Origin: Actinomycetota bacterium
Lineage (GTDB): Bacteria > Actinomycetota > Acidimicrobiia > Acidimicrobiales > Acidimicrobiaceae
DNA: 44,131 nt
Assembly (NCBI GenBank): GCA_027320695.1
Contig: DAHVKW010000003.1
Coordinates: 1 to 44,131 of the forward strand
Reading direction: 5' to 3'
Shown: positions 2,631-41,942 of the stretch, piece after piece
Position numbering within the stretch: position 1 is the first letter of the stretch
Layout: each line of letters opens with the position of its first letter
Translations under genes and position numbers: made by a program
Notes under the pieces: generated by a model
What the model was told of the DNA's origin: nothing
The model's database searches: none
Seen by the model: the letters and a program-made list of their open reading frames with translations, nothing else

Positions 2631-3356
2631 GTGAGGGATCGTTCGGTGGATCCGCTCGTTAATACCCGTACCAGTTCGATTCGCGAACATGGTCCCATTA
2701 GGGTTTTGATCGTCGACGATCATGCCTTGGTGCGCGAAGGAACTGTTCAGCTGCTCGAGCGCGAGGCTGACATGATCGTGGTGGGCCAAGCCTCTACGGG
2801 TGCCCAGGCTAATTTGCTGTTCGATCGTCTGGGAATCGATGTCGCGCTTCTTGACGTCAACCTTCCCGATATGAGCGGGCTCGAGGTCGCGCGCCTAGTG
2901 GCTCTAAAGCATCCGACGATAAGAGTTTTGGTTGTAAGCGCCTATGACGATTACGCCTATGTTGCCGAAGCTCTGGAGCTCGGTGTGGCCGGATACCTGC
3001 TCAAGACGGCAACAGGAAGAGAACTCGTTGATGCCGTCAGGACTGTGGCAGGAGGCGATTTCGTGTTGAGCGGATCGATATCGCTGCGTCTGGCACACCG
3101 CAGGCAGACAAACCATGAAGTCAACGAGGCAAAGTTGACACCAAGGGAGATTGACGTATTTCGTCTTCTTGGCAAGGGATTGACGAACAAGGGTATTGCC
3201 AATAATCTAGGGCTGACTCTTCGGACGGTGGAAGGCTACGTTTCTAATGTTCTGGCAAAACTTGGAGCGACTTCAAGAACCGAGGCGGCGCTTTATGCGC
3301 TTAGCCGGCATCTAATTCCTTTGGACGAACGCGATGAGCAGACAGAGACACACTGA
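2631..3356 (+). CDS. NarL/FixJ-family response regulator
   Basis: Two-component transcription regulator of 241 aa. A receiver domain spans about residues 23-140: the acidic pair in VLIVDDHALVREG, the phosphoacceptor aspartate in VALLDVNLPDMSG, and the conserved lysine in GYLLKTATGRELVDAV. A LuxR-type helix-turn-helix follows at about 168-230 (LTPREIDVFRLLGKGLTNKG, RTVEGYVSNVLAKLGATSRT). The track starts at GTG 2631. An in-frame GTG at 2646 has GAGGG about 8 nt upstream and may be the real start. It overlaps the sensor kinase gene by 23 bp, so the pair is co-transcribed and probably translationally coupled. The stimulus and target genes are not evident. Confidence 0.9.
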   Translation: MRDRSVDPLVNTRTSSIREHGPIRVLIVDDHALVREGTVQLLEREADMIVVGQASTGAQANLLFDRLGIDVALLDVNLPDMSGLEVARLVALKHPTIRVLVVSAYDDYAYVAEALELGVAGYLLKTATGRELVDAVRTVAGGDFVLSGSISLRLAHRRQTNHEVNEAKLTPREIDVFRLLGKGLTNKGIANNLGLTLRTVEGYVSNVLAKLGATSRTEAALYALSRHLIPLDERDEQTETH

Positions 3357-4785
3357 ATACATAACGGTGTTGCGGCGCGCCGCTCACCCTCCTTCGTATG
3401 AGCTCCAATTCTGGCTTCTTCAAACATCGGTAATCCTGATAGCTGTTCTGCACTTGGTCGTAGATTTGAAGTGGAGCCATGAAACAGCATTTCCAGATGG
3501 GATTCCGGTCGCCCTGCTCATCATTCCTGTTGGCTACGCGGCGCTGAGATACGGGCTGTCCGGTTCGGCGGCCACCGCGTTGTGGGCGACGGTGCTTTGG
3601 TTCCCGGATCTGCTACTTTCTCACGACCGAGGACATTCTGGCAGTGATCTGGTCAGCTTGATCCTTGTCGATGCCGTGGGGTTCTTCGTGGGTCAGCGGG
3701 TCGAAGCTGAGAGAATGGCACGGGCAAGGGTGGAGAGCGCGGCAGTGGAACTCGCCGGCGCTGAAGAACGCTACCGCCAGCTCTTCAACGCCAACAGCGC
3801 TCCGATCCTTCTGTTTGACGAGCTTGGGACGATCCTGGACGCAAATTTTGCCGCACACATGGCATTCGGCGCCGAGGTAGTGGGCAGTTTCGACAGAGGA
3901 ATCCTGGGCATTGACATCCTCGCGGAGGACCATTCCGGCCGAGTCATCTCGATGGCTGATGGCCATGATTATAGGGTGGATCTGGTCCGTTTGACCACCG
4001 GAAGAGGAGACCGCGCGATCCAGGTGGTTCTAGAGGATATTACCCGCGAGCGCAGCGAGGGACGGCGGATAAGGCACTACGCGGAACTGGTTGTGCGTGC
4101 CGAGGAAGAGGAGCGGCTGCGTTTGTCGCGGGAGCTCCATGACGAGCCTCTCCAGGTACTGATGCATTTGTCCAGGCGGTTGGCAATGGTAGCAGAAGAT
4201 CCAGTTCCGCCGGAAAATTTGGAAGAGACGCTCCTGGAGCTGCGCCAGCATGTGCTCGACGCCGCCACCGGGCTAAGAGGCATAGTGACCGGCCTGCGGC
4301 CGCCCGCTCTTGACCAACTCGGCCTGGTGCCAGCGCTCAGGAGCTTCTGTGCCGATCTGGAAGATCAGACCGGGCTTCTGGTCTCTATCGAGGTGTCTGG
4401 CAATCCGGAGCGCCTTCCCTCTGAAGTCGAGCTTGGAGCTTTCAGAATTGTCCAGGAATCAGCTAGCAACGCGGCCCGCCATGCCGATGCGAGAGCTCTA
4501 AAAGTGTCAGTTGAGTTCGACAAAGATACCCTGCGACTCGAAATATCCGATAACGGTCGGGGATTTGATCCTGACAAGCTTGACGAACATACGGGCGAGC
4601 ATCTTGGCGTGGTTGGCATGAGGGAGCGCGCCAGGCTTCTCGGCGGCGGTCTCGACCTGCAATCGTCGATCTCCGGTGGAACCATAGTGAAGGCGTCGAT
4701 TCCTGTCAGAGGATTTGAGCTGGAACGCGACCACCCCTCGTTCCAGCAGGAAACGGCGGCCACCGGGCAGAGTGCCCGAGACTGA
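3334..4785 (+). CDS. NarX-type membrane sensor histidine kinase with PAS domain
   Basis: 483 aa. The N-terminus has three or four hydrophobic segments (about residues 25-120). A PAS-like domain follows (about 140-235; RYRQLFNANSAPILLFDE, DANFAAHMAFG). Next is a HisKA_3 dimerisation domain whose phosphoacceptor is the histidine in RLSRELHDEPLQVL, and a HATPase domain with FRIVQESASNAARHADA (N box), ISDNGRGFDP (G1) and HLGVVGMRERARLLGG (G2). Enzymes of this family autophosphorylate on His and pass the phosphate to NarL-type regulators. The partner is the overlapping upstream gene. The PAS segment has no obvious heme or flavin signature, so the ligand is unknown. Confidence 0.9.
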   Translation: MSRQRHTEYITVLRRAAHPPSYELQFWLLQTSVILIAVLHLVVDLKWSHETAFPDGIPVALLIIPVGYAALRYGLSGSAATALWATVLWFPDLLLSHDRGHSGSDLVSLILVDAVGFFVGQRVEAERMARARVESAAVELAGAEERYRQLFNANSAPILLFDELGTILDANFAAHMAFGAEVVGSFDRGILGIDILAEDHSGRVISMADGHDYRVDLVRLTTGRGDRAIQVVLEDITRERSEGRRIRHYAELVVRAEEEERLRLSRELHDEPLQVLMHLSRRLAMVAEDPVPPENLEETLLELRQHVLDAATGLRGIVTGLRPPALDQLGLVPALRSFCADLEDQTGLLVSIEVSGNPERLPSEVELGAFRIVQESASNAARHADARALKVSVEFDKDTLRLEISDNGRGFDPDKLDEHTGEHLGVVGMRERARLLGGGLDLQSSISGGTIVKASIPVRGFELERDHPSFQQETAATGQSARD

Positions 4786-5027: not shown

Positions 5028-6485
5028 TCACTGGACTTTGCCTTGTACCGAAAGGCTGGCGTTGATGCCCGAGGCCGCCACTTTTCCCATCCTGACCGCC
5101 TCCACCACCGTAGCTCCTCCATTTAGAGCATCGCCCGCTGCGAAATAGAGAGGATTGGACGTAGCTCCAGTTTCCGGGTCGACAATTATCAGCCCAGAGC
5201 GAACCTCAAGGTCTGGGATAAATGCCAGGAAGTCGGTTCTCGGCGTTTGGCCAATTGCCTCTATCACAGTATCGACCTCTAGGAGAAATTCGGAACCTTC
5301 AATCGGGACCGGTATTCGCCGGCCCGACGGGTCAAGCTCGCCAAGTTCCATCTTCGCGCACTGAATAGCGCTAACCCGCCCGTTGCCTCGGTATTGGAGA
5401 GGACTTGTAAGCCAGGCGAATCGGATGCCTTCTTCAACAGCCTCTCCGTATTCAACGGCATAGGCGGGCATCTCCTCAAGGCTGCGCCTGTAGAGGATGG
5501 TGACCTCATTTGCGCCAAGTCTTACGCATTGTCTTGCAACATCCACGGCAGTGTTGCCCGCTCCGATGATCGCCACTCTATCTCCAACTCTAGGCAGGTC
5601 GGCAGACTTGATTCTTTCGATAAACGGCAGGGAGAAGTGTATTCCTTCCAATTTGCTCCCCTTGCATCCGGTGGAAGCCCCTTTGCCCATTCCTACCGCC
5701 AGCAAAATGGCATCATATGAAGCTTCGAGTTCCTTCAGTAATTTGTCGTCCACCGTAGTGTCGAGACGAAATTCAACGCCCAGTTCCCAGAGCCGGGAAG
5801 TTTCTGTCTCTAGTGGATCGCTGAGCTGGCGATAGGGCGCTATGGCACTGCGCGCCAGACCTCCCGTAGCTGACTTGGAATCGATCAAAGTGACTTTGTA
5901 TCCCCAATTCGCGAGTTCAAAAGCTCCGGTCATTCCAGCCGGGCCCGCCCCTATGACTGCGACCTTTTTCCCGTTGTGAGCCGGCCTGGCAGGAACCAAG
6001 AGGTCGCCTTCATTGAAAATATGGTCAATCGCATACCTTTCAAGACGTCCGATATCTACCGGTCTCTGGTTGGTGGAGTGCAGGACGCAGGCCCCCTCGC
6101 ATAGTTCCTCCGTGGGACAGACGCGGGCACAAGTTCCTCCCATAGGGTTTTCGAGGAGAATAATCTCTGCCGCCTCATTCGGCTCTCCCACGGAAATGGC
6201 TCCTATGAAACTCGGAACATCAACTTTCACAGGACAGGCCAACATGCATGGTGCCGGAGTGAGTGGTCCCCCGCATAGCAGGCAGCGGTATGCCTCTAGG
6301 AAAGCGTCCTGGTGCGAAATTGGGGGTTTGAGCTCCGCCGTCATCGCTTGCCACGGGTCCGGCAGGTGAGAGATCTCATAGAGGTCGGTTCTCGGCGCTG
6401 CCTTGCGAATTCCCCCCCTAATGGGCTCGGCGTGCACTGCTTTACCTCCTGGACAGGATCGACTTCGATCTGTTCTGGCATTCAT
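5028..6485 (-). CDS. GltD/PreT-type NADPH-dependent Fe-S flavoprotein
   Basis: 485 aa. The N-terminal third is a double-cluster Fer4_20 domain (CLLCGGPLTPAPCMLACP and CARVCPTEELCEGAC). It is followed by an FAD-binding Rossmann motif (VAVIGAGPAGMTGAFELANW) and an NAD(P)H-binding motif (VAIIGAGNTAVDVARQC) with a downstream YRR, which favours NADPH. The C-terminal FAD motif GATSNPLYFAAGD is also present. Length and domain order match glutamate synthase small subunit and the PreT subunit of bacterial dihydropyrimidine dehydrogenase. Neither GltB nor PreA is next to it, so it may act as a stand-alone electron-transfer subunit for another oxidoreductase. Start: ATG with a weak AAGG upstream. It faces the sensor-kinase gene convergently. 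Confidence 0.82.
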   Translation of the reverse strand: MNARTDRSRSCPGGKAVHAEPIRGGIRKAAPRTDLYEISHLPDPWQAMTAELKPPISHQDAFLEAYRCLLCGGPLTPAPCMLACPVKVDVPSFIGAISVGEPNEAAEIILLENPMGGTCARVCPTEELCEGACVLHSTNQRPVDIGRLERYAIDHIFNEGDLLVPARPAHNGKKVAVIGAGPAGMTGAFELANWGYKVTLIDSKSATGGLARSAIAPYRQLSDPLETETSRLWELGVEFRLDTTVDDKLLKELEASYDAILLAVGMGKGASTGCKGSKLEGIHFSLPFIERIKSADLPRVGDRVAIIGAGNTAVDVARQCVRLGANEVTILYRRSLEEMPAYAVEYGEAVEEGIRFAWLTSPLQYRGNGRVSAIQCAKMELGELDPSGRRIPVPIEGSEFLLEVDTVIEAIGQTPRTDFLAFIPDLEVRSGLIIVDPETGATSNPLYFAAGDALNGGATVVEAVRMGKVAASGINASLSVQGKVQ

Positions 6486-7043: not shown

Positions 7044-7685
7044 ATGGCAATTTCTTCAGGGAGATACCTTAGGCCAGGAGCGGTCGCGGGTGGCTTGGCC
7101 ACCTTGGCAATCGGCGCTCTGCTGGCAGCTTGCGGCTCATCAACAGCTGCATCATCTACTAGCTCAACCGAAGCACCCACTACTCAGGCGCCAACCACTA
7201 CTACTGAGGCACCAACCACTACGGCGGCCCCCCAGAACGTAAGTTTGCAGCTTGCGACCGAAAGTGCGAGCGGAAGTAAAGAGGGTTATCCAAAATTCAT
7301 ACCAGGGGATATCACCATACAGCAAGGGTCACCGGTGGTTTTGACGATCACCAGTGTTGACGACGGCCCGGCTCCATTGCCGGCCAGCCTTGCCACCTAC
7401 GAGACGATCCAGGGTGGTACGGAAACCGTAGATGGTTCACCGGTAACCGCTATACCGAATGCCAACATTTCCCACACGTTCAGCGTGCCGGACCTTGGTA
7501 TCAATGTCCTGATTCCTCCAGTTCCCAAGGGTGCCAAGACGACGACCGTTACCTTCACCTTCACACCTTCTAAGACCGGTACCTTTACGTGGCACTGCTT
7601 TGCTCCTTGCGGAGACGGTGCTGACGGTATGGGCGGCGCAATGGCGACCATGGGCGAGATGGAAGGCAACATAACAGTGTCCTAA
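7044..7685 (+). CDS. Cupredoxin-fold lipoprotein 1 (CuA-like C-x3-C-G motif)
   Basis: 213 aa. A lipoprotein signal (lipobox LLAAC, Cys about residue 31) is followed by a Thr/Pro-rich linker with repeated PTT units and then a cupredoxin-like domain. Candidate copper ligands are the His in NISHTFSVPD, two cysteines in WHCFAPCG, and a methionine seven residues after the second Cys (PCGDGADGM). That Cys-x3-Cys-x6-Met spacing equals the CuA site of cytochrome oxidase subunit II, but the second CuA histidine (four residues after the second Cys) is replaced by Ala. The Met-rich tail (MGGAMATMGEM) may also bind copper. It probably acts as a membrane-tethered extracytoplasmic electron carrier, by inference. 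A strong RBS (GGGAGG) fixes the start. It is a paralogue of the next gene. Confidence 0.75.
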   Translation: MAISSGRYLRPGAVAGGLATLAIGALLAACGSSTAASSTSSTEAPTTQAPTTTTEAPTTTAAPQNVSLQLATESASGSKEGYPKFIPGDITIQQGSPVVLTITSVDDGPAPLPASLATYETIQGGTETVDGSPVTAIPNANISHTFSVPDLGINVLIPPVPKGAKTTTVTFTFTPSKTGTFTWHCFAPCGDGADGMGGAMATMGEMEGNITVS

Positions 7686-7749
7686 GGCTTATTCAGGCAG
7701 GGCGTGTGGCCTAGCGCCCCAGTTCCCATGCGCCCTGTCTGAATAATTA
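7686..7749 (+). terminator. Long hairpin between the two cupredoxin genes
   Basis: Arms 7689-7704 (ttattcaggcagggcg) and 7731-7746 (cgccctgtctgaataa) pair over 16 bp with one G-U. The hairpin begins a few bases after the stop codon at 7685. It could terminate or attenuate transcription so that the first cupredoxin is made in excess of the downstream genes. Confidence 0.65.
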
Positions 7750-7753
7750 AGCC

Positions 7754-7786
7754 CGTGGCCGCTGCAGGTATCTTGCAGCGGCCACG
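7754..7786 (+). terminator. Second perfect 13-bp hairpin before cupredoxin 2
   Basis: cgtggccgctgca (7754-7766) and tgcagcggccacg (7774-7786) with a 7-nt loop. It has no T-run (gtgtgaaac follows), so an RNA-stabilising or processing role is as likely as termination. Confidence 0.55.
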
Positions 7787-7826
7787 AGTGTGAAACAAGA
7801 GAAGCAGTCAAGGAGGCAGGTAGGAC

Positions 7827-8492
7827 ATGAAGCTCATACAGAGGCGTAGGACGGTCAATGGAAGCGCGAAGCCGATTGCAGCGTTTAGCAATAGGCGGTT
7901 AGCCAAGGTTGGGGCAGCGGGCGCAGTGGCTACGGCAGCATTGCTGCTGTCGGGTTGCACCAGTTCCACTTCGGCGACAGCAGCAAAGGATGTTTCGGCT
8001 GTCAGCCCTTCCGTTGTTCACGAACAGATGGTCATCCAAACGGGAAAGATGGACGGAAAGCCCGGCTGGCCAAAAATTGTTCCCTCTGACCTCACGTTTG
8101 CTGCTGGTACAACGGTGGATCTAAAAATTGTCAATTATGACGATGGCACAGCGCCATTGTCGCCAGTTTCCCCTTATGGACATGTCTGGGGGTCCGACCC
8201 GACCTTTGGTCTGGTGAACGGGGGAAGCGAAACGGTGGACGGCAAAGCTGTAACAGAGATCGCAAACAACCTGGTATCGCATACTCTCACGGTTCCAGGA
8301 TTGTTGATAAACATTCCTATCCCAGCTGTTCCCTCGGGGCAAAAGAGCATCACTGTCGAGTTCACGTTCCAAGTCCTCAAGACGGGAAAGTTCTTCTGGC
8401 AGTGTGAAGCTCCGTGCGGAAGCGGATCAACAGGCATGGGAGGGGCAATGAACTCCATGGGATGGATGCAGGGCTATATCAACGTGACGTGA
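7827..8492 (+). CDS. Cupredoxin-fold lipoprotein 2 (paralogue of 7044-7685)
   Basis: 221 aa with a basic N-terminus, a hydrophobic segment and a lipobox (LLLSGC, Cys near residue 46). The mature domain aligns along its length with lipoprotein 1: GWPKIVPSDLTF, an NGGSETVDGKAVTEI block (counterpart GGTETVDGSPVTAI), VSHTLTVPG, PIPAVPSGQ, and FWQCEAPCGSGSTGMGGAM. The Cys-x3-Cys and the Met seven residues on are kept, while Ser stands where CuA has its second His. The role is presumably the same: extracytoplasmic copper electron carrier or copper-binding partner of the Fe-S/NrfD proteins downstream. A strong AAGGAGG ribosome site precedes ATG 7827. Two hairpins separate it from its paralogue. Confidence 0.75.
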   Translation: MKLIQRRRTVNGSAKPIAAFSNRRLAKVGAAGAVATAALLLSGCTSSTSATAAKDVSAVSPSVVHEQMVIQTGKMDGKPGWPKIVPSDLTFAAGTTVDLKIVNYDDGTAPLSPVSPYGHVWGSDPTFGLVNGGSETVDGKAVTEIANNLVSHTLTVPGLLINIPIPAVPSGQKSITVEFTFQVLKTGKFFWQCEAPCGSGSTGMGGAMNSMGWMQGYINVT

Positions 8493-8565
8493 TCAAAGAT
8501 CGTGCATGACCCTTGCTTTGGGGCGTTGACCAGTAGTTTCGATCGGTTAGAAGGAGGTGGTTACG

Positions 8566-8604
8566 TTGTATGACGAGAACTTCCTAGGAGATGATGTTAA
8601 ATGA
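8566..8604 (+). CDS. Possible 12-codon leader ORF translationally coupled to the Fe-S gene
   Basis: An excellent ribosome site (AAGGAGGTGG, 8551-8560) lies too far (about 40 nt) from the ATG of the Fe-S protein but is 8 nt from a TTG at 8566. That TTG opens 12 codons (YDENFLGDDVK after the start) and stops at TGA 8602-8604, overlapping the ATG at 8601 in an ATGA arrangement. This suggests a coupled leader peptide, or that ribosomes are loaded here. The peptide itself resembles nothing I know. Confidence 0.35.
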   Translation: MYDENFLGDDVK

Positions 8605-9602
8605 GGAAGCTTTCAAAGAGTAAGCAACAAGCTTCAGGCGGACTTGATTTGATTCCAGCGGAATCGTGTGCGATTCCGGCGGATGGGCAAGCTTGTTCGA
8701 TCATGCCAGCTGTGCTCGCGGACGAGCCAGCCGGCAGCGTAGAAAAGGATTTATCAAGAAGACGTTTTCTTGGAATGTTCGGCGCGGTGGCAGGTGCCAC
8801 TGCAGTCCTGGGCACTGGCGTTGAGCTACTTTCCTACCGTGCATATGCCCAGGGCCTTCCAAAGACGAACAACTGGACCGGCAACAGTGGAATGACCGGA
8901 AGTGGCGCAGCCGACATGGCAAGCACCCAGGCTCCTCCCACTCACCAGTGGGCAATGGTAATAGATCTAAGCATGTGCAACGGCTGCGGGTCGTGCACTG
9001 CCGCGTGTCAAAAGGCTCACTACCTCACTCCGGATCAGACCTGGATGAAGGTTTTCGAGCTGACCGACACTACTGGACAGACTTATCACCTGCCAAGACC
9101 GTGCATGCAGTGCGAAAACCCTCCTTGCTTGCATGTTTGCCCGGTGCATGCGACCTTCAGGCAGGAGCAGGGCGTAGTTTTGGTAAACCAGGACCGCTGC
9201 ATCGGTTGCCGCATGTGCATGGCCGCGTGTCCATACGAGGCCAGATACTTCAACTGGAATTCAGACGTGAAATATCCCCCGATCCCGGTTGAGGCTACTC
9301 CGGAGTTTCCCGTGCCCCAGCGTCTGGGCACAGTCGGGAAGTGCACTTTCTGCGTTGGGAATTTAAACCACGGCCTGCTCTCGGAGTGTGCTGCAGGATG
9401 TCAAATGGGCGCCATCTATAACGGCGACCTGAAAACGGACGTGGCGGTAAACAGCGCGGGTACGACGGTGAAACTGTCAAAGTTCCTCGATGACAACAAT
9501 GCCGTCACTTTCAAGCCGGAGCAAAATACACACCCCCGGGTTTGGTACATATTGGGACACGGCCAGAACCTTAATGCCGATGCATCAACGGCGAAGTCTT
9601 AG
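8601..9602 (+). CDS. Tat-exported NrfC/TtrB-type four-cluster Fe-S protein
   Basis: 333 aa. A twin-arginine motif (LSRRRFLG, residues 51-58) before a hydrophobic stretch ending AYAQG marks export by Tat, with an unusually long N-region. The mature part carries the four cysteine groups of the DmsB/NrfC/TtrB/PsrB family: CNGCGSCTAACQ, CMQCENPPCLHVCP, CIGCRMCMAACPYEA and CTFCVGNLNHG...CAAGCQMGAIY, that is four [4Fe-4S] clusters. In this family the protein wires a membrane NrfD quinone module to a catalytic subunit. Here NrfD follows 16 bp downstream but there is no molybdopterin or multiheme subunit, and the neighbours are cupredoxins. Inferred role: electron relay on the outer face of the membrane. 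Confidence 0.87.
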   Translation: MRKLSKSKQQASGGLDLIPAESCAIPADGQACSIMPAVLADEPAGSVEKDLSRRRFLGMFGAVAGATAVLGTGVELLSYRAYAQGLPKTNNWTGNSGMTGSGAADMASTQAPPTHQWAMVIDLSMCNGCGSCTAACQKAHYLTPDQTWMKVFELTDTTGQTYHLPRPCMQCENPPCLHVCPVHATFRQEQGVVLVNQDRCIGCRMCMAACPYEARYFNWNSDVKYPPIPVEATPEFPVPQRLGTVGKCTFCVGNLNHGLLSECAAGCQMGAIYNGDLKTDVAVNSAGTTVKLSKFLDDNNAVTFKPEQNTHPRVWYILGHGQNLNADASTAKS

Positions 9603-9618
9603 AGAGTAGGGAGGAATC

Positions 9619-11091
9619 GTGAAAGAGACAGATATAAACGAGAGTGCCCTTCTGAATGAGAATGGCCAAAGAGATGCAGAGCAAGCCTGGGCCGCGGATG
9701 TCCGCAGAGCCGCAATAAGGCCGACAATAGGGCGCGCGAGCGTTGCCTGGAAGCTTTCGGTAACGGTGCTTGGCCTAGTAGTGCTGGCAGGCTTAGGTGC
9801 CTGGATATACCAGTTCAAGCGTGGTCTTGGTGCGGCTGGCTACAATGATCAGGCATTTTGGGCAGTTTACATTGTCGATGTCGTTACCTTTATTGGAGTG
9901 AGCTATGGCGGCGCGGTCATATCGGCAATCTTGCGCCTCACCGGCCAGAGCTGGCGAGCGCCGCTTACTCGACTAGCCGAAGGCACGGCATTGGTCACAG
10001 TTCTGATCGGCGCGCTTTTCATCTTTCCGCACCTTGGCAGGCCGGAACGTTTCTGGGAGATCCCGATCTATGTGAACACCTCTTCGCCGCTGTTTTGGGA
10101 TTTCATGGCGATCAGCACATACGTTTTGGCGACAGTGATCTTTTTCTACCTGCCGCTGGTTCCCGATATGGCCATCGTCAACAAGACACTCGGCAGAGCC
10201 GATAGGCCCGCGCGTTTCAGGATTTACAAGGCGCTATCCCTGAAGTGGATGGGAAACGAACGGCAGCGCCGCCTGCTGCACTCGGTTCTCACGCTCATAT
10301 CGCTGATAATCATCCCGCTTGCCGTATCGGTTCACTCCGTGCTTTCATGGGCGTTTGCGACGACTAGCAGGCCAGGTTGGATGGAGTCCGTCTTTCCTCC
10401 TTATTTCGTGATCGCGGCGCTCTACTCGGGCACTGCGCTGGTCATTGTCGTCGCATCAGCCTTCAGGAAGGGGTATCGCCTGGAGAGGTTCATTACCAAG
10501 CGGCATTTTGTCCGGCTTGGTTACATAATGGCAGCTCTTGGACTGGTTTACGCATACCTTACCATTGCTGATCTTTTGTCCGAGGGTTACACCGGAATCA
10601 CCAGCGGCTGGATACGGCAAACTATCGCCGGTCGCTATGCCATACCGTTCTGGTTCTATGTGGTTTTTGGCGAGGTTCTTCCAATAGCGCTGGTGGCGGT
10701 GAAAAAGACTCGAAACATCAAGGGTATGACCGTGGCAAGCGTTGGCGTGGTAATCGCGTTATGGGTCAAGCGAATCGTTATCGTGCTTCCTCCGGTAACC
10801 CAGCCGCTAATCGGCGGATTCTGGGGAACGTACCATTTCACTTGGGTATCAATCACGATCACAGTTGCGGGCGTCGCAGCCATACCTTTTGGTTTGATGC
10901 TGTTGTTCCGCTTTCTCCCCGTTCTTTCAATTGACGAGATGGAGGAGATGGGTGAGCTTGGGTCAGTGGAGCAAGTCTCCAAAGAGACCCTGGCAGTACA
11001 AAAGCAGGCGCCAGCATACGCATATGCAAATGGCAACGGTCATGTGAACGGCAACGGAGTGGGAATGCCTGAAAAGGAAGTGCAATTATGA
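9619..11091 (+). CDS. NrfD/PsrC/ActC-type quinone-interacting membrane subunit
   Basis: 490 aa with about ten hydrophobic helices between residues 50 and 440, an N-terminal cytoplasmic extension and a polar C-terminal tail (NGNGHVNGNG). Family traits visible include AFWAVYIVDVVTFIGVSYGG, LFIFPHLGRPERFW, SPLFWDFMAISTYV and HSVLSWAFATTSRPGW. The length and FPHLGRPERFW-type loop resemble the larger NrfD proteins found in alternative complex III (ActC/ActF) and related complexes. Proteins of this family oxidise or reduce quinol. The GTG start has GGGAGG about 5 nt upstream, and the stop overlaps the next ATG (ATGA), so translation is coupled. Together with the Fe-S protein it makes the core of a quinone oxidoreductase. 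Confidence 0.87.
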   Translation: MKETDINESALLNENGQRDAEQAWAADVRRAAIRPTIGRASVAWKLSVTVLGLVVLAGLGAWIYQFKRGLGAAGYNDQAFWAVYIVDVVTFIGVSYGGAVISAILRLTGQSWRAPLTRLAEGTALVTVLIGALFIFPHLGRPERFWEIPIYVNTSSPLFWDFMAISTYVLATVIFFYLPLVPDMAIVNKTLGRADRPARFRIYKALSLKWMGNERQRRLLHSVLTLISLIIIPLAVSVHSVLSWAFATTSRPGWMESVFPPYFVIAALYSGTALVIVVASAFRKGYRLERFITKRHFVRLGYIMAALGLVYAYLTIADLLSEGYTGITSGWIRQTIAGRYAIPFWFYVVFGEVLPIALVAVKKTRNIKGMTVASVGVVIALWVKRIVIVLPPVTQPLIGGFWGTYHFTWVSITITVAGVAAIPFGLMLLFRFLPVLSIDEMEEMGELGSVEQVSKETLAVQKQAPAYAYANGNGHVNGNGVGMPEKEVQL

Positions 11092-11675
11092 AAAGTCTTT
11101 CGAGATGGCTCATTGCCGCCGTGGCAACGATTGGCTCGGTGCTGGTTGTGTCAGGCACTGCTGTAGCGGCCGCTGGGCAAAGTAGCGCCGTACTTGATCT
11201 GGCGGTACAGACTGTATCGGCCAACGGAGTTAATTTGGCGCTGTCTGCACAGGCGGGATCCGGGGCTTCCGGACAGAGTGTGACCTTTTTTGTCCAGACT
11301 CAGGAGTTTTCTAGCCATGGATGGATGGCGCTTGGCACCTCAGTCACGAACTCTGCCGGCGAGGCTACCTACACCTATACTCCGACATGGACCGGTACGG
11401 AACTTTTTGGAGCGGCTCTAGGTTCTTCGGATGCTGTTGCCACGCCGAGCGTCACAAAGTCATTCCAAGTTTTGAAGGATCCTCCCGGGGTGCCCCAGAG
11501 CGTCATTGAATACTCAAGGCCGCTCGGCACCGAAGGAGGGATATTCGTCAAGAGCATTTTGTCGGTTCTCGCTCTGGTGTGGATTCTGCTCCTTGGCTCG
11601 CTCGTTCTGGTGGTTTGGCGCATGCCTCGCCTGACAAGAGCATCGGTGGATACCAGCCAATCTGGGAGGAACTGA
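11088..11675 (+). CDS. Secreted Ig-like domain protein with C-terminal membrane anchor
   Basis: 195 aa. A Sec signal peptide (residues about 1-28, AVAAAGQ) is followed by a beta-rich domain of about 100 residues (VNLALSAQAGSGASGQSVTF, SAGEATYTYTPTWTGTELF) with the look of a bacterial Ig-like fold. A short Pro-rich spacer, a transmembrane helix (about 153-177) and a basic tail (WRMPRLTRASVD) complete it. I recognise no family. It is translationally coupled to the NrfD gene (ATGA) and sits directly before the third cupredoxin gene. An accessory or docking subunit that holds copper proteins near the NrfD/Fe-S complex is a reasonable but unproven guess. Confidence 0.7.
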   Translation: MKSLSRWLIAAVATIGSVLVVSGTAVAAAGQSSAVLDLAVQTVSANGVNLALSAQAGSGASGQSVTFFVQTQEFSSHGWMALGTSVTNSAGEATYTYTPTWTGTELFGAALGSSDAVATPSVTKSFQVLKDPPGVPQSVIEYSRPLGTEGGIFVKSILSVLALVWILLLGSLVLVVWRMPRLTRASVDTSQSGRN

Positions 11676-11676
11676 G

Positions 11677-12201
11677 ATGATTCAGATCGGTGCAAATATG
11701 AAGAAAAGATTGTTCACGCGCCAAGCGGCGACCATAGCCGGGCTGGCAGTGATCGGAGGCATCGCGGCTGCCTGTGGCGGAGCATCTACCGCGGCAAGCC
11801 AAGTAGCCACCGTCGATGGCAACGCGCCGTGGATGACCACTCCCTCAGCCAATGGAGCCTCAGGGTCGGCCCAGGTCATCAACCTGACAATTCAGGACGT
11901 GACTACTCCGCAAGGCCCCCAGCCCGCATTTGTAGGTCCCAACGGCAAGGGAGCCGCAGATCTGTTCAGCGTCTCGGCCGGCAAACAGGTGCAAGTGGTT
12001 GTGGCCAACAAGGATGCCATGCCGCATACCTTTACGGTAGCGGATCTTGGGCTGAACATCACGATTGCTCCCGAGGCAACAACGAAGTTCAGTTTCACGG
12101 CGAAAGCCGCTGGAACTTATTCTTGGTACTGCGCTATTCCATGTGGCAGCTGGGTGATGAGCAATCCAGGCTATATGAAAGGCGACTTCAAAGTAGCTTG
12201 A
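11677..12201 (+). CDS. Cupredoxin-fold lipoprotein 3
   Basis: 174 aa. The lipobox is IAAAC (Cys near residue 33). A plastocyanin/CoxB-like cupredoxin domain follows: strands around VINLTIQDV, VQVVVANKDAMPHTFTVADLGLNITI, TTKFSFTAKAAGTYSWYCAIPCGSW and a terminal GYMKGDFKV. Potential copper ligands are His in PHTF, both Cys of YCAIPCG, and Met in the SWVM or GYM segment. It is shorter than the other two and lacks their GG[TS]ETVDG block, so it is a more distant paralogue. Start at 11677 is supported by GGGAGG upstream. An inner ATG at 11698 is less well placed. It begins 1 bp after the preceding stop and ends the cluster. Confidence 0.78.
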   Translation: MIQIGANMKKRLFTRQAATIAGLAVIGGIAAACGGASTAASQVATVDGNAPWMTTPSANGASGSAQVINLTIQDVTTPQGPQPAFVGPNGKGAADLFSVSAGKQVQVVVANKDAMPHTFTVADLGLNITIAPEATTKFSFTAKAAGTYSWYCAIPCGSWVMSNPGYMKGDFKVA

Positions 12202-16648: not shown

Positions 16649-18154
16649 TTAGATGTGTAGCTCCTCTTCGGGGTTGTCAAAAACTTTCACTACCGGGGGT
16701 TTGCCGGGCATTCCAAGGTCATCCCACCGGGCCAGGGCATTTTCGTACTGTTCGGTTGTCAATGCCGTCCTGCGTGAGAAGGTCTTGATATTCTTGAACT
16801 CCTTGCACGCGTAGATCAGGGCCTTTGATCCGTAGGGGCGCTCTTCATTGGGGTTCTTGCTCGGATCGAGGTAAGTTGACCATGTGTTGCGCAGGATGTC
16901 GATATCTTCGGAAACTCTGCAGCGCGTGGAAGCCGCCCAGATGACCTGTTCCAAATCGGATGGATCGACGTCATCGTCCACCACGTAGATGAATTTTGCG
17001 AAATACGCGCCTCCGGCACATTGGGCGGCGATCGCAGCTGCCTGTTGGGCATGGCCTGCGTACATCTGTTTCAGAGAGACCACAGTCATTCCGAACCCGC
17101 CAGCGGCAGAGGGTACAGACCATACGCCTTGAACTCCCGGGATACCACAGGCTTCGAGGTCGCGCCACACTCTCGCGCCGCGCATCACGGATAGGAAAAG
17201 GTTCTGCTCACACGACGGATGGTCAGCCATGAGCGCCGCCGTCATGATTGGCTGGTTCCTGAAATATATCGCCTTGATCTCTATGCTTGGCGTCTGTTCC
17301 AATCCGGGCCGGCCGTAATATCCTGTGAATTCGCCAAAGGGCCCCTCTTCGCGTCCGCCTTCGGGATAGGAGTATCCTTCGATTACCAACTCGGCTCTGG
17401 CTGGGATCGGCAGGCCGGTGATCTTGCCGGGAACTGTTTCGATCGGAGAACCTTGGAGTCCTCCAGCCGCATCATATTCCGATTCCTGTTTGGGGAATCC
17501 CGTTGCGGCGCAGATGAACAGCAAAGGGTCGACGCCGTAGACGCTGACCACCGGACACGGCTTTCCTTTGGCCCACCACTTCTCGCGGTCCAATAACGTG
17601 TCCTTGCCCGGGGAGGAGTAATATCCGACCCTGTCTTTTTCTTCAACCATCTGGCGGTATGTGCCAAGATTGATGCGCCCGGAGTCTGGATCCTGGGTGA
17701 TGATGACATCTGCGGTACCGATGTACGGTCCTCCGTCCCGCACCCAGTGGGTAGGAGTCGGGAAGTAGCTCAAATCGATATCGTCGCCCATCCAAACGTT
17801 TTCAAAAATGGGCGCGTCTTTCGGATCGATTGAAACGGGCTTGATTTTTTCGTCGAACTTTTCTTTTATGTACTGGACCAGTTCAATCGGGGTTTTGCCG
17901 GGAAGGGTCCGCATCGCCAGCGAAAGGCGGTTCATGCTGTTCCCGATGGGATTGAAAAGCACTCGCACGTCGCCTTTGTGGCCCTTTGGATTCTCGAACA
18001 GCAAAGTTGTTTGTTCGGAGTTTTTTCCGTTGAGATAGGTCAAAGCGCCCATTTCAAGATGAGGGTCCACCTCTTTGGTTATGTGGGTGACTTCCCCGAG
18101 CTTCTCTACGTCGCCCAGCCAGTCCCTCAGGTCGCGAATATCGACTTTGCTCAT
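16649..18154 (-). CDS. UbiD-family (prFMN-dependent) decarboxylase 1
   Basis: 501 aa from ATG 18154, which has GGAGGT 7 nt upstream; the track's longer start at 18223 lacks this. UbiD/Fdc enzymes use prenylated FMN to (de)carboxylate aromatic or alpha,beta-unsaturated acids. Visible hallmarks are RINLGTYRQ (the Asn and Arg of the prFMN/active-site motif), EGPFGEF (the two catalytic-region glutamates), and a C-terminal DEDVDP-like segment (VVDDDVDPSD). It differs from the other three paralogues in many places (THWVRDGGPYIG, NSEQTTLLFENP). Where E. coli UbiD/Fdc1 have a metal-binding His (GMH-type), it has GYYSSPGKD. It is divergent from UbiD 2, across a 590-bp region. No UbiX is in the window. 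Confidence 0.9.
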   Translation of the reverse strand: MSKVDIRDLRDWLGDVEKLGEVTHITKEVDPHLEMGALTYLNGKNSEQTTLLFENPKGHKGDVRVLFNPIGNSMNRLSLAMRTLPGKTPIELVQYIKEKFDEKIKPVSIDPKDAPIFENVWMGDDIDLSYFPTPTHWVRDGGPYIGTADVIITQDPDSGRINLGTYRQMVEEKDRVGYYSSPGKDTLLDREKWWAKGKPCPVVSVYGVDPLLFICAATGFPKQESEYDAAGGLQGSPIETVPGKITGLPIPARAELVIEGYSYPEGGREEGPFGEFTGYYGRPGLEQTPSIEIKAIYFRNQPIMTAALMADHPSCEQNLFLSVMRGARVWRDLEACGIPGVQGVWSVPSAAGGFGMTVVSLKQMYAGHAQQAAAIAAQCAGGAYFAKFIYVVDDDVDPSDLEQVIWAASTRCRVSEDIDILRNTWSTYLDPSKNPNEERPYGSKALIYACKEFKNIKTFSRRTALTTEQYENALARWDDLGMPGKPPVVKVFDNPEEELHI

Positions 18155-18745
18155 TTCAAATACCTCCAATTGCTGTCCGGCCAAATGAATTCCCCAAAGC
18201 GCCTCTAAATCGATACATGCCATACCCCTGCATTAAGTTTCGATGTAATAGTAAATTGGCTGTCAGCGCCGCTCCAAATCTGACGGTTGCGAAGCCCCTC
18301 ATGCTGGTATTTGGCTGCATGAATAAAATTAAGCATGACGGGCTCTGCGCTATAAGCTCCGGTGCCCACCGTTACCCAAGTACTCATGTGTCCCCATCGT
18401 CTGGCTTGATATAGTAGCTCGCAATTTGTTGGCTCTCTTAGGGTCCGCGCTATCTCACTGTGATATTTACAAGTTAGAATCGCTGTTTGATAATGACAAT
18501 AGCGCACCATGATAGAGAAATACAAATTTACCGAGAAATATTTTCTGCGCCTTGAGCTGGCATTTTTATCCACAGGCGGTTTTTTGAATTGAGGTCTTGA
18601 GAAACGCCTATGTTACAATTTCTTCGACCTGGCGTTCCACGGCTGTGGGGATGAACACTTTGAGGCTCATTGGGGGGTAACAGACCAGGATTGGGGCTAT
18701 CCCGTTGGATATTTTGGGGATATCTATGCTGCAGGAGGTATTATT
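18155..18745. other. 591-bp divergent promoter region between two ubiD genes
   Basis: Transcription leaves in both directions from here. The 122-aa minus frame (18205-18573) and 65-aa plus frame have no family pattern and overlap each other, so I do not call a gene. The stretch 18480-18650 is AT-rich, as expected for promoters. AGGAGG lies just before the TTG of UbiD 2 and GGAGGT just before the ATG of UbiD 1. Confidence 0.5.
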
Positions 18746-20215
18746 TTGCAAAATTTAGGGGATTGGCTTACGAAAGTCGAAGAGCTGGGCGAGTTGAAAA
18801 AGATCTCCGCCGAAGTCGATCCAGTGCTCGAAATGTCGACAATAACTTACATGGCCGGCAAAGAGGTCGGAGGGCCGACGCTCCTATTCGAGAACATCAT
18901 GGATCGTCCAGGCCAAAGGGTGTTGTTCAACCCATATGGCTCGAGTTACAAGAGGCTGGCATTGGCAATCAGGGAAAACCCCGACGATAAGCCGATAGAG
19001 CTGGCTCACACTCTGGCCAGGAAGATGAAGCAGAGGATTGCGCCAAAGATAGTCGATGGCGCCACCGCTCCAGTCAATGAGAACATCGAGACCGGAGATG
19101 ATATCGACGTCACCAAGTTTGGCGCCCCTGTTATGTGGCCTAGAGATGGCGGGGCATACATAGGCACCGCAGACGTGGTGATAACCAGGGATCCCGAATC
19201 ATCGAGAGTCAACCTTGGCACCTATCGCCAGATGGTCGAAGGCCCGAAGCAGGTGGGATTCTACGCATCTCCCGGCAAGGACGCTCTTTTGGACAGGGAG
19301 CTTTGGTGGAAACAGGGCAAGCCTGCTCCGGTGGCGGCAGTTTACGGAGGCGACCCGCTTCTTTTCCTGGTGGCGGCGACCACATTTCCAAAAGACATCT
19401 CAGAATATGAGTTTGCCGGAGGAATTGCGGGTGAGCCGATCGAGGTGTTCGAGAGCGAGATCACCGGCCTGACGCTTCCAGCCCACGCCGAAATAATCAT
19501 CGAGGGCTTTGCGTATCCTGACCAGACCGCTCCTGAAGGTCCCTTCGGAGAGTTCCAGGGTTACTATGGACGTCCTGGAGGACCCACCCCGTACATAGAG
19601 ATAAAGGCAATTCGCTACCGGAATAACCCGATCCTCATGTCCGCGCTCATGGCGGATTGGCCCTCCAACGAATGCGGAGTCATGTGGGCTCTGGCCAAAT
19701 CGTCCAAGGTCTGGGATGATCTTGACTCCATGGGCGTCCCTGGAATCAAAGGAGTCTGGTCTCCCCCTGAGGCGGCTGGATGGGGCTGGACGGTTGTCTC
19801 GATCGAACAAAGATATGCTGGTCATGCCTCGCAGGTGGGAGCGCTTGCTGCCCAATGCATGGGTGGTGCCTACTTCACCAAGTACGTTGTGGTGGTGGAT
19901 GAAGATGTCGATCCGACGAGTTTGTCCGAGGTGGTTTGGGCTATGGCTACGCGTTCAAGGCCTAAGGATTCCATTGACATACTGCGTGAGACCTGGAGCA
20001 CTTACTTAGATCCAAGCCAGAACCCCGCGGAGATGAGACCCTGGGGCTCGAAGTGCATAATAAACGCCTGCAAAGAGTACAAGTACATCAACGAGTTCTC
20101 CAGGCGAACCCGGCTGGACAGGAAGGTGTACGAAAAGGTTTCGGCAAAATGGCAGGAGCTCGGGCTAAATGGCCTGCCTCCGCAGATCGACTTTTTCGAA
20201 GACGAGAACATTTAG
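18746..20215 (+). CDS. UbiD-family (prFMN-dependent) decarboxylase 2
   Basis: 489 aa, starting at TTG 18746 with CAGGAGG about 7 nt upstream; the next residues (QNLGDWLTKVEELGEL) fit the family N-terminus. Conserved elements are VNLGTYRQ, SEYEFAGGIAGEPIEVF, EGPFGEFQGYYGRPGG, and VVVDEDVDP. The GFYASPGKD segment replaces the His-containing segment of Fdc1. By eye it is largely identical to UbiD 4 at 40384, including long uninterrupted blocks such as GIKGVWSPPEAAGWGWTVVS, so the two are recent paralogues or parts of one heteromeric enzyme. Expected reaction: reversible decarboxylation of an aromatic or unsaturated acid in the cytoplasm. Substrate unknown. Confidence 0.9.
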   Translation: MQNLGDWLTKVEELGELKKISAEVDPVLEMSTITYMAGKEVGGPTLLFENIMDRPGQRVLFNPYGSSYKRLALAIRENPDDKPIELAHTLARKMKQRIAPKIVDGATAPVNENIETGDDIDVTKFGAPVMWPRDGGAYIGTADVVITRDPESSRVNLGTYRQMVEGPKQVGFYASPGKDALLDRELWWKQGKPAPVAAVYGGDPLLFLVAATTFPKDISEYEFAGGIAGEPIEVFESEITGLTLPAHAEIIIEGFAYPDQTAPEGPFGEFQGYYGRPGGPTPYIEIKAIRYRNNPILMSALMADWPSNECGVMWALAKSSKVWDDLDSMGVPGIKGVWSPPEAAGWGWTVVSIEQRYAGHASQVGALAAQCMGGAYFTKYVVVVDEDVDPTSLSEVVWAMATRSRPKDSIDILRETWSTYLDPSQNPAEMRPWGSKCIINACKEYKYINEFSRRTRLDRKVYEKVSAKWQELGLNGLPPQIDFFEDENI

Positions 20216-21009
20216 CTCTGGCCGGCCACAATTGAAATAACGGAAGTTGGATGTAAAGCCTTCCAACTTGGGCCTTGGCCTAGCGTGGGAAGTTGGATCA
20301 CGGATGTTTGGCGCATGTGGCAGACAGCCGCATGCGCCGATGATTTAATCGACTGGCGAATTTTTCGAGATGAAGCAAAGTTTGCTCTTCCAGCCCTGGC
20401 GGGTGGCAGCCGACAGCTTGGTCTACCAGGCGTCGCGAGCATGCCTAAATAGCTGATGAGTTTGACCCGTGAGGTTTGGGCGAGAAAGGTCGCAAGCCTC
20501 AGAAGGAGGCTCGCCAATTCTCAGGGGGAGGACATCGAGGGCCTTTCTTCTTGAGATCGGGGAGACATTTTTCTCATCAGACCGCAAAACACACGGCCAA
20601 AGACGTGCGCGATCTGGAGTGATTACCCGCCCCGATGTTTTGCGCAAGTTATCTCCCGTCATTCTTGGCCCAACTAGCAAATGTGATATGTCCGATATTG
20701 CCTGATGATAGACTCGCATTGATTTCAAGTGGAATAAGCGACTTTCGCAACAGCTGACCGGATTTGCGAATTGGCGCAGGCCATAGCAGCGAATTGATGT
20801 GCGATGCGCGCGGCACAGGCTTGGTATTGGCAAGTAGCAGGCATCGTGGGTCTGGCGCCGCTGTTGGCAAAGTAATACCATTAGTTGGTGGTTTGGCAAG
20901 CTAAATCCGCCGGTGACCTTCGGGAAATTTTTCCGAGGTCCGCGGCGGTGAAATGTTTGAGGGGATCAAAGCGCAGCGTCCCAGGTTTGGGCTTGAAAAG
21001 AGGGTGGAA
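20216..21009. other. About 790-bp gap without a supported gene
   Basis: Short frames on both strands (20423-20899 minus, 20469-20705 plus, 20649-20870 minus) overlap each other, lack ribosome sites and recall no family. The stretch may hold a decayed gene or long untranslated regions. Its right part includes the alternative start (ATG 20953) of the following ubiD gene. Confidence 0.45.
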
Positions 21010-22437
21010 ATGGCACAGGGGTTCAGGGATTATCTCGATTTTATGGAGAGCAAGCACCCATCGGAAATCTTGCACATAGACGGAGTAGTTAACCCGGCTG
21101 GTTTTGACGTGACAGCCGTTTTGACGCACCTGGAGAAGCAGGGGAAGTACCCAATGACGCTTTTCTCTAACTGCCTCAACCTGAAGGGCGAGATATCGCG
21201 TTTTCCGCTCGCTACCAACATCTACGCGTCTCGAAAGCGTTGCGCAATTGCGCTGGGACTTGAATCTGAGCAGAGCGGACTACCACTCGGAATTGAATAC
21301 GCTCGCCGGGAGGCCGGCAGAAAGACGCCCCTGGAGATACCGAGATCACAGGCTCCGGTGTGTCAAATCGTAAAAGTAGGGGACGAGGCCGATCTTGAAG
21401 AATTTCCTATCGTCAAACACCACTACATGGATGGGGGACCCTACGTTGATATGACTCCGGTTATGAAAGACCCGGATTCCGGTGCCTATAACATCGCATT
21501 TCTGCGGACCATGTACAAAGGGCCACGAAAGCTGGGCTTTCACATGTCACCCCGGCACAACTGGCAGATAGTGAGGAAAAACGAAGAAAAAGGCACTGGC
21601 ACCCCAGTGGTGATCGTGGTGAGTCACCATCCTGCCTTCTATCTCGGTGCGCTGAACGTTTCACCCTTTGGCGTGGATGACTACGAACTAATCGGTTCGA
21701 TTATGAATGAGCCGCTTCGCCTGACCCCATCCGCGACCTGGGGAAGTAATTTCATGATCCCGGCGGATGCGGAGATCATTATCGAAGGGGAAGTTCTTCC
21801 CAATGTTCGTGAGGTCGAGGGGCCCTTCGGCGAGTTTCCGGGAACTTTTGGACCTCAGCGGGTACGCTGGGTCATCGATGTCAAAGCCATCAGCTACCGT
21901 GAAGATGCCGTGTACCAGGATATCTTTGTAGGGCACAAGGACAATTGGACTCTGGGCGCCATACCAAAGGAAGGAACAATATTCAACCGGATAAAGGGAG
22001 TTGTTCCAACCATTCGAGGCCTGCACATGCCCGACTCGGGCGCTGGAAGGTTCAACTGCTACATCTCAATTGGCAAGAAAGTAAATGGAGAGAGCAAGCA
22101 AGCTGCCATGATCGCATTGGGCGAGTGCGACTTCGTCAAGAATGTGATCGTCGTCGACGAGGATGTCGATCCCTTCAATGAGCATGAAGTGATGTGGGCA
22201 GTCGCAACCAGGGTCCAAGCTTCACAGGATGTGGACATCATTAAGAATGTCAAAGGGAATACGCTTGATCCATCTCAGATCGACGATGTCTTGACCGACA
22301 AGATAATCATTGACGCCACCAAGCCCCTGGGCCGTCCTTTTGCCGAACGGGTTCGGGTTCCAGACGAATCGCTGGAGCGAATAAAGCTGGAGAATCTGGT
22401 AAGCCAAGATGAACTTGAGAAGTTAGCGAGGGGATAA
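21010..22437 (+). CDS. UbiD-family decarboxylase 3, hydroxyarylic-acid type
   Basis: 475 aa from ATG 21010 (MAQGFRDYLDFMES matches the usual family start); the track's ATG at 20953 adds 19 residues and cannot be excluded. It belongs to a different UbiD branch from the other three: YNIAFLRTMYKG in place of the INLGTYRQ motif, GFHMSPRHNWQI keeping a His, and EGPFGEFPGTFGPQRVR. VIVVDEDVDPFNEHEVMWAV is typical. Length and form resemble the large subunit of non-oxidative hydroxyarylic acid decarboxylases (EcdC/VdcC class). The 49-aa zinc-ribbon gene 6 bp downstream strengthens this, because those enzymes have a small D subunit. The prFMN synthase subunit (UbiX/EcdB) is absent here. Confidence 0.88.
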   Translation: MAQGFRDYLDFMESKHPSEILHIDGVVNPAGFDVTAVLTHLEKQGKYPMTLFSNCLNLKGEISRFPLATNIYASRKRCAIALGLESEQSGLPLGIEYARREAGRKTPLEIPRSQAPVCQIVKVGDEADLEEFPIVKHHYMDGGPYVDMTPVMKDPDSGAYNIAFLRTMYKGPRKLGFHMSPRHNWQIVRKNEEKGTGTPVVIVVSHHPAFYLGALNVSPFGVDDYELIGSIMNEPLRLTPSATWGSNFMIPADAEIIIEGEVLPNVREVEGPFGEFPGTFGPQRVRWVIDVKAISYREDAVYQDIFVGHKDNWTLGAIPKEGTIFNRIKGVVPTIRGLHMPDSGAGRFNCYISIGKKVNGESKQAAMIALGECDFVKNVIVVDEDVDPFNEHEVMWAVATRVQASQDVDIIKNVKGNTLDPSQIDDVLTDKIIIDATKPLGRPFAERVRVPDESLERIKLENLVSQDELEKLARG

Positions 22438-36831: not shown

Positions 36832-36937
36832 TTGGTACTAAAGCTTACGCAGATCGAAGCGGTTGCGATTCAGTTTGCGATGTCGTGTCAGCTATCTGCA
36901 GCTAGCCTTGTTTAATCAGCGAAAACAGGTGAGTGTG

Positions 36938-37729
36938 ATGCATCGTTCAACTCTTGAGATTCTTGTCAAAAAATTTGAGTCTGGTGAGATAACCCAAGGC
37001 GAACTCGTAAGGCACCTCGAGTCTGGATTCATGCTTGATCTAGGTTATGCAAAGCTGGATACCCACAGGCCGCTTCGCCAGGGTTTCCCCGAGGTGATAT
37101 ATGGCCCAGGCAAGACCCCAGCCCAAGTAGCGCACATAGTCCAAGCCCTGGTAACTCAAGAGCCAGGTTCAACCGTGCTACTGAGCAGAGCGAGCACCGC
37201 GCAGCTTGACGCCGCCAAGGAGATTGCCGGAGAGGCGATCACTTTCTACCACGGATTGAGTCTTTCAGATTCCGGCCATTTCAGCGCGGTTTGGAACCCG
37301 GTGCCAATTCGAGACGGCGTCAGCGTTTGTGTCATTACCGGCGGAACAGCTGACCTGGCGGTGGCAACCGAGGTGACCGCGGTCCTTTTCGCATTCGGCG
37401 TGAGATCGGATTTGATCTCCGATTGCGGAGTGGCTGGAATTCACCGCCTTCTGGAGCAGACCGAGAGGATCCGAACCGCTGACGTAGTAGTGGTGGTGGC
37501 GGGAATGGAGGGCGCTATCGCTTCGGTTGTCGGGGGACTTGTAAAAGCGCCGGTTATAGCGGTTCCCACCAGCACTGGCTACGGGGCGTCGCTTGACGGA
37601 GTCACAGCGCTTTTGTCGATGCTTTCTAGCTGTACTCCCGGACTGAGCGTGGTTGGGATTGACAACGGTTTCGGAGCGGCAGTCAGCGCTATTCGGATAC
37701 TGGATTATGGCACGAGTCGCCTGGGTTAA
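36938..37729 (+). CDS. larB: LarB, carboxylase of nickel-pincer nucleotide synthesis
   Basis: 263 aa from ATG 36938, which has AGGTGAG about 7 nt upstream; the track's earlier start (36863) adds a non-family leader. LarB carboxylates and hydrolyses nicotinic acid adenine dinucleotide, the first step to the nickel-pincer cofactor of lactate racemase and relatives. The family N-terminus (GYAKLDTHRPLRQGFPEVIY, GKTPAQV) and a PurE-like domain (VITGGTADLAVATEVTAVL, SDCGVAGIHRL, VVVVAGMEGAIASVVGGL, VIAVPTSTGYGASLDG) are present. It overlaps larC by 23 bp. Downstream enzymes of the pathway, LarE and the client LarA, are not in the window. Confidence 0.93.
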   Translation: MHRSTLEILVKKFESGEITQGELVRHLESGFMLDLGYAKLDTHRPLRQGFPEVIYGPGKTPAQVAHIVQALVTQEPGSTVLLSRASTAQLDAAKEIAGEAITFYHGLSLSDSGHFSAVWNPVPIRDGVSVCVITGGTADLAVATEVTAVLFAFGVRSDLISDCGVAGIHRLLEQTERIRTADVVVVVAGMEGAIASVVGGLVKAPVIAVPTSTGYGASLDGVTALLSMLSSCTPGLSVVGIDNGFGAAVSAIRILDYGTSRLG

Positions 37730-41859: not shown

Positions 41860-41942
41860 CCTCTGCACTCCTTTCCTAAAGCCCGAAACTGTCTGGCGTT
41901 TTGGAGCCAAAACCTACTTGGATCATCCAAGCCGCTACAGCT

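Follow-up and report, generated by a model that had tools for sequence, protein, structure and literature searches.

Alternative complex III (ACIII) is known to have a copper acceptor in Chloroflexus, the protein auracyanin. A review of NrfD-like complexes, to which ACIII belongs, never mentions copper and tabulates as partners heme, molybdenum, nickel-iron or iron-sulfur (Fe-S) proteins (PMC8076601). A literature search for NrfD together with a cupredoxin, or for Acidimicrobiia together with NrfD, found nothing relevant. Here we describe a six-gene cluster at positions 7044-12201 of a 44,131-nucleotide stretch of Acidimicrobiaceae DNA (the whole stretch analyzed, hereafter the window; contig DAHVKW010000003.1), which comes from a metagenome-assembled genome (MAG) of 1.9 Mb that is 70% complete (contig C158). 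The cluster is real and conserved, and it represents a variant NrfD module of the ACIII/DsrOP kind. In these acid-loving actinobacteria it probably passes electrons between quinones and copper proteins, with neither a heme nor a molybdenum (Mo) subunit.

The six open reading frames all lie on the + strand, in the order cupA-cupB-FeS-NrfD-Ig/TM-cupC (Ig, immunoglobulin-like; TM, transmembrane; Tat, twin-arginine translocation):

7044..7685, + strand: cupA, cupredoxin-like lipoprotein, 213 aa (open reading frame; lipobox LAAC; candidate ligands H144, C185, C189, M200, M206)
7827..8492, + strand: cupB, cupredoxin-like lipoprotein, 221 aa (H152, C193, C197, M208, M214; AlphaFold/Foldseek)
8601..9602, + strand: Tat-exported Fe-S protein, 333 aa, DsrO / ActB C-terminal type (Pfam, NCBIfam DsrO and PDB ActB matches)
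9619..11091, + strand: NrfD-like quinone-binding membrane subunit, 490 aa, ActC type (Pfam, PDB 6f0k_C, quinone-site residues)
11088..11675, + strand: third subunit, Ig-like extracytoplasmic domain and C-terminal TM helix (model, Foldseek, profile matches)
11677..12201, + strand: cupC, cupredoxin lipoprotein, 174 aa (Pfam; 1fwx; H117, C152, C156, M161, M167)

The operon is tight: the NrfD and Ig genes overlap, and 1 bp separates the Ig gene from cupC. No CXXCH motif and no molybdopterin protein occurs among the six genes. The NrfD subunit matches PF03916 (E 6e-32, 112 bits against a cut-off of 25.8) and keeps S156 and H138; its solved sequence relatives are exclusively ACIII C-subunit-type chains, with E-values from 1.5e-56 (6f0k_C) to 2.7e-45. 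H138, S156 and D161 align with His139, Ser164 and Asp169 of R. marinus ActC, residues proposed to act in quinone binding or protonation (PMC8076601). Against DsrP the same protein scores 72 bits, under the cut-off of 350, and it is the single NrfD both in the cluster and in the window's own genome. The Fe-S protein carries a Tat motif (SRRRFL), and its four 4-Cys motifs lie at residues 126, 168, 200 and 248. Its best curated score is to NCBIfam DsrO (165 bits, under the cut-off of 200), its PDB matches are to ActB, and its 333 aa hold Fe-S domains only; a search in plasmids returned distant matches only.

The lipoboxes of the three lipoproteins read LAAC, LSGC and AAAC. By fold, cupA, cupB and cupC are cupredoxins: Pfam places cupC securely (PF13473, 4.5e-10), and the AlphaFold model of cupB is a Greek-key beta sandwich (mean pLDDT 75, core above 90) that Foldseek matches to rusticyanin (1rcy, E 5e-5) and AcoP (9e-5). 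Pfam gives cupA only 0.009 and cupB no match, and cupA is homologous to cupB (44%). Among solved structures, cupC is best matched by the CuA domain of N2O reductase (1fwx, E 5e-6). H152, C193, C197, M208 and M214 (cupB numbering) are invariant across 27 cupA/B sequences, and cupC has the same H...C-x3-C...M...M pattern; in all three the C-x3-C spacing is CuA-type. Copper binding by the three lipoproteins is putative. In the model, the third subunit is a beta domain followed by a C-terminal TM helix. A first-pass annotation made from the sequence had described a heme- and molybdopterin-free module of an NrfD-type membrane protein, a four-cluster Tat Fe-S protein, three cupredoxin-type lipoproteins and a membrane-anchored Ig-like protein at these positions, and each of these parts is borne out, with gene calls matching all six.

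Among described systems, ACIII comes nearest. The cluster resembles it in an ActC-type NrfD with the quinone-site His, Ser and Asp, in an Fe-S protein like the C-terminal half of ActB, and in the proposed role, oxidation of quinol to the benefit of a one-electron carrier. It differs in lacking the pentaheme ActA, the monoheme ActE and the Mo-like half of ActB, in having no recognizable ActD or ActF, in encoding its cupredoxins inside the operon, and in the added Ig-TM subunit. Because the multiheme, monoheme and Mo-like parts were tested for and not found (no CXXCH subunit occurs in the cluster or in its clade orthologues), we do not file the cluster as ACIII; its mode of action is probably that of ACIII with copper proteins as acceptors. 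With DsrOP it shares a Tat Fe-S protein, scoring best against DsrO, and an NrfD protein without a Mo subunit, but both proteins fall under the curated cut-offs, the partners are copper proteins, and neither DsrMK nor the triheme DsrJ of DsrMKJOP is among the window neighbor genes scanned. PsrABC, TtrABC and DmsABC, which are Mo-dependent complex iron-sulfur molybdoenzymes (Mo-CISM), have a similar Fe-S and NrfD membrane entry module for electrons, whereas their molybdopterin catalytic subunit is missing from the window operon and from 22 of the 24 clusters of its clade, described below.

The copper partners have relatives of their own. AcoP and rusticyanin of Acidithiobacillus share the cupredoxin fold and are likewise small copper carriers near aa3 oxidase in acidophiles, but the lipoproteins of the window have the ligand set H, C-x3-C, M, M without a second His, and a quinone module as partner. 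The CuA domains of N2O reductase and COX2, the nearest solved sequence relatives of cupC, have the same first His and C-x3-C spacing, whereas cupC lacks the second His and is a free lipoprotein rather than an oxidase domain. Of the NrfD complexes that the first-pass annotation had named for comparison, the nearest relative is ACIII, through ActC, rather than polysulfide or tetrathionate reductase. The annotation did not recognize the layout as that of a described complex; the cluster is a variant of ACIII/DsrOP-type modules.

Relatives were recovered by protein search in Acidimicrobiaceae, Acidimicrobiales, and Actinomycetes or Actinobacteria. The order cupredoxin(s)-FeS-NrfD-Ig-cupC, with genes overlapping or adjoining, is common to many Acidimicrobiia. 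Other genera share this order, with proteins about 45-90% identical, so it is not a chance arrangement; this answers the check on gene order that had been suggested at the outset. The gene that follows the cluster is acs (acetate-CoA ligase) within the genus and, in some other genera, a DoxX-like membrane protein (a sequence reading, with no Pfam match). Across 60 genomes, cupC and NrfD occur together in 14, NrfD alone in 2, cupC alone in 1 and neither in 43 (p 1e-10; outside the window's genus, p 3e-7), with Fisher values that ignore shared ancestry; in the single cupC-only genome the cluster is cut by a contig end. A lone cupB in genome G028 was considered as a sign of another partner and set aside: its contig (L152) reads cupB-FeS and breaks off within a membrane-protein gene, so this cupB probably belongs to the same cluster.

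A census of the class covered 395 genomes, 39 of them with a close NrfD, and order relatives were added; flanks were annotated with profiles built in the analysis, and clades were taken from the NrfD tree. One NrfD clade of 24 clusters includes those of the window's genus. CxxPC cupredoxins are encoded in 19 of these clusters; none encodes a heme subunit, and two have a molybdopterin gene (L138, a paralogue in genome G002, and L162/L037). The five clusters without a cupredoxin are L138, L173, L174, L176 and L177. In the sister clade, the third gene encodes an Ig domain, a TM helix and a C-terminal cytochrome c in 16 of 19 clusters, and a cupredoxin occurs in none. Mapped on the NrfD tree, a single change accounts for the heme state and three changes for the copper state, so few events may lie behind the swap. 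This exchange of cupredoxin for cytochrome c supports a quinol:cupredoxin oxidoreductase, a stripped-down ACIII. The first-pass annotation had proposed direct electron exchange between quinone and copper and had looked to homologous clusters for molybdopterin or cytochrome subunits; the census and the swap fit its proposal.

For the Ig-TM subunit, Foldseek returns a generic Ig-like fold only. In two Chloroflexi clusters (L043, L045) and an archaeal MAG (L047), a CuA-like domain is fused at the N-terminus of the Ig-TM protein. Profile comparison links the window's family to this CuA-Ig-TM family (E 1e-6) and the CuA-Ig-TM family to the Ig-TM-cytochrome c fusions (E 1e-9); the match between the window's family and the cytochrome c fusions is weak (E 6e-4). 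The Ig-TM subunit is a probable scaffold for a one-electron carrier. Chloroflexi, a Thaumarchaeota MAG and Acidimicrobiia also have FeS-NrfD clusters that encode lipoproteins and large TIG-domain proteins (L045, L047, L042, L174, L177), and we know of no described system of this kind.

From the sequences, we lean toward a heme- and Mo-free minimal relative of ACIII that acts as a quinol:cupredoxin oxidoreductase. Menaquinol would be oxidized on NrfD near the outer membrane face, and the Tat-exported subunit, with its four Fe-S clusters, would hand the electrons on to the CuA-like cupredoxin lipoproteins, kept close by the Ig-TM subunit; the cupredoxins would then carry them to a terminal acceptor, for which the CuA site of an aa3-type oxidase is the likeliest candidate. 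The electron path, its direction, the final acceptor and proton translocation by NrfD are all putative. We favor a path from quinol through NrfD, Fe-S protein and cupredoxin to an oxidase because, in one relative (L158), a cupredoxin of the same class (CFDPCGG...M, without the second His) lies directly upstream of COX2-COX1 in an aa3 operon whose COX2 has a complete CuA motif; because weak cupB matches lie beside second COX1 genes in many family members; and because of the likeness to AcoP, whose homologues in acidophiles sit in oxidase clusters (PMC4059628).

A cytochrome b family match is present in all 60 relatives and COX1 in 57, and in the window's own genome the bc1 and aa3 genes share a contig (C148). 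The idea that the module replaces bc1 was therefore rejected, and the module is taken to be accessory equipment. The host and many family members also have a second, divergent cytochrome b of ~610 aa (L144:3195-5027, G000:C207), encoded away from the bc1 operon.

Several points weigh against a quinol:cupredoxin oxidoreductase. The host has bc1 and aa3 of its own. The cupredoxin-bearing oxidase operon was not detected in the window's genus, and because only the bc1-linked oxidase is clearly found there, the acceptor in that genus is uncertain. Asp253 of ActC is Ala in the window's NrfD. None of the three lipoprotein groups conserves the second His of CuA and type 1 sites (one invariant His in the 27 cupA/B sequences, a single His in the window's cupC), which leaves neither ligand set complete; the copper site would thus be unorthodox, and the Cys pair could form a disulfide instead. 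Finally, L138 holds a Mo-like version of the same Fe-S/NrfD core.

The main rival, which we consider unlikely, is operation in the opposite direction: the cupredoxins would receive electrons from a high-potential donor, such as Fe(II) in acidic waters rich in iron, and NrfD driven by the proton motive force would push electrons to quinone for NADH. The closest folds to that of the modeled cupredoxin are those of rusticyanin and AcoP, both from the iron oxidizer Acidithiobacillus, and several related MAGs carry contig names that we take to mean a probable origin in acidic mine sites. The cupredoxin-COX2-COX1 operon of L158 also resembles the AcoP-homologue arrangement of acidophiles (PMC4059628). 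However, genomes with the oxidase operon and genomes with NrfD overlap only partly, and bc1 could do the uphill transfer instead.

We give a lower probability still to the core being the electron-transfer part of a Mo enzyme whose catalytic subunit is encoded elsewhere, with the cupredoxins as extra carriers. The core can serve Mo enzymes: the L138 cluster of the same genus (L138:1708-10424) combines paralogous TIG, FeS, NrfD and Ig genes with a divergent molybdopterin-like protein of 1067 aa and a NarJ-type chaperone, and in L162/L037 the genes of a response regulator and a kinase separate the cluster from an ethylbenzene-dehydrogenase-like Mo gene of the type II dimethyl sulfoxide (DMSO)-reductase family. 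Downstream, L045 also encodes a Tat type II DMSO-reductase-like protein. Clusters with cupredoxins are nevertheless usually without Mo enzyme genes, and 22 of the 24 clade clusters have none on the same strand within 5 kb, although some contigs are short. A missing nearby subunit of the L037 type was sought and rejected: with that query the window's genome gave only low-identity matches, in one 1239-aa NarG-like frame, and among the 60 genomes G055 alone had high-identity matches, on a contig other than that of its NrfD. In G055, a region of about 16 kb (L149:2168-18500) holds three alpha genes of type II DMSO reductases, similar to ethylbenzene dehydrogenase.

That the lipoproteins are copper chaperones or storage proteins, with the Fe-S/NrfD pair only supplying reductant for copper-site assembly, is very improbable: a set of C-x3-C, His and Met also resembles the ligands of chaperones such as Sco proteins, and one homologue adjoins an oxidase operon (L158), but one to four cupredoxin copies stand beside a complex itself without copper, cytochrome c takes their place in the sister clade, and the fold is that of cupredoxins rather than the thioredoxin fold of Sco.

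Two possible regulatory genes lie upstream of the cluster in the window:

2631..3356, + strand: NarL-type response regulator, possible regulator (NCBIfam)
3334..4785, + strand: PAS histidine kinase, partner of the response regulator (Pfam, synteny)

A regulator-kinase pair stands directly upstream of cupA in L037 and in the same position in L031 (synteny; Pfam for the L037 pair). A scan for promoters and terminators found sites no more often than in shuffled sequence. A gene for a GltD-like NAD(P)H flavoprotein (5028-6485, - strand) is divergent from cupA and directly upstream of it in the genus contigs that reach there (L020, L021, L023, L025). Elsewhere in the window, Pfam finds four UbiD-family decarboxylase genes, at 16649-18223 (-), 18746-20215 (+), 20953-22437 (+) and 40384-41910 (-), which suggests a large paralogue family of prenylated-FMN decarboxylases. 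At 36863-38948, an AIR-carboxylase-like gene (LarB type) adjoins one for a nickel insertion protein (LarC type), a nickel-pincer cofactor pair with no obvious racemase in the part of the window scanned.

Copper proteins in place of cytochrome c on the same NrfD/Fe-S core show that core to be a portable quinone module, and the cluster offers a compact system in which to study energy conservation by NrfD. A CuA-like site without the second His is a separate, directly testable question of copper chemistry. More tentatively, a cytochrome-free quinol:cupredoxin oxidoreductase, a new His-Cys2-Met(2) class of carriers and a cupredoxin-fed aa3 oxidase may together form a heme-c-free respiratory branch in acidophilic actinobacteria.

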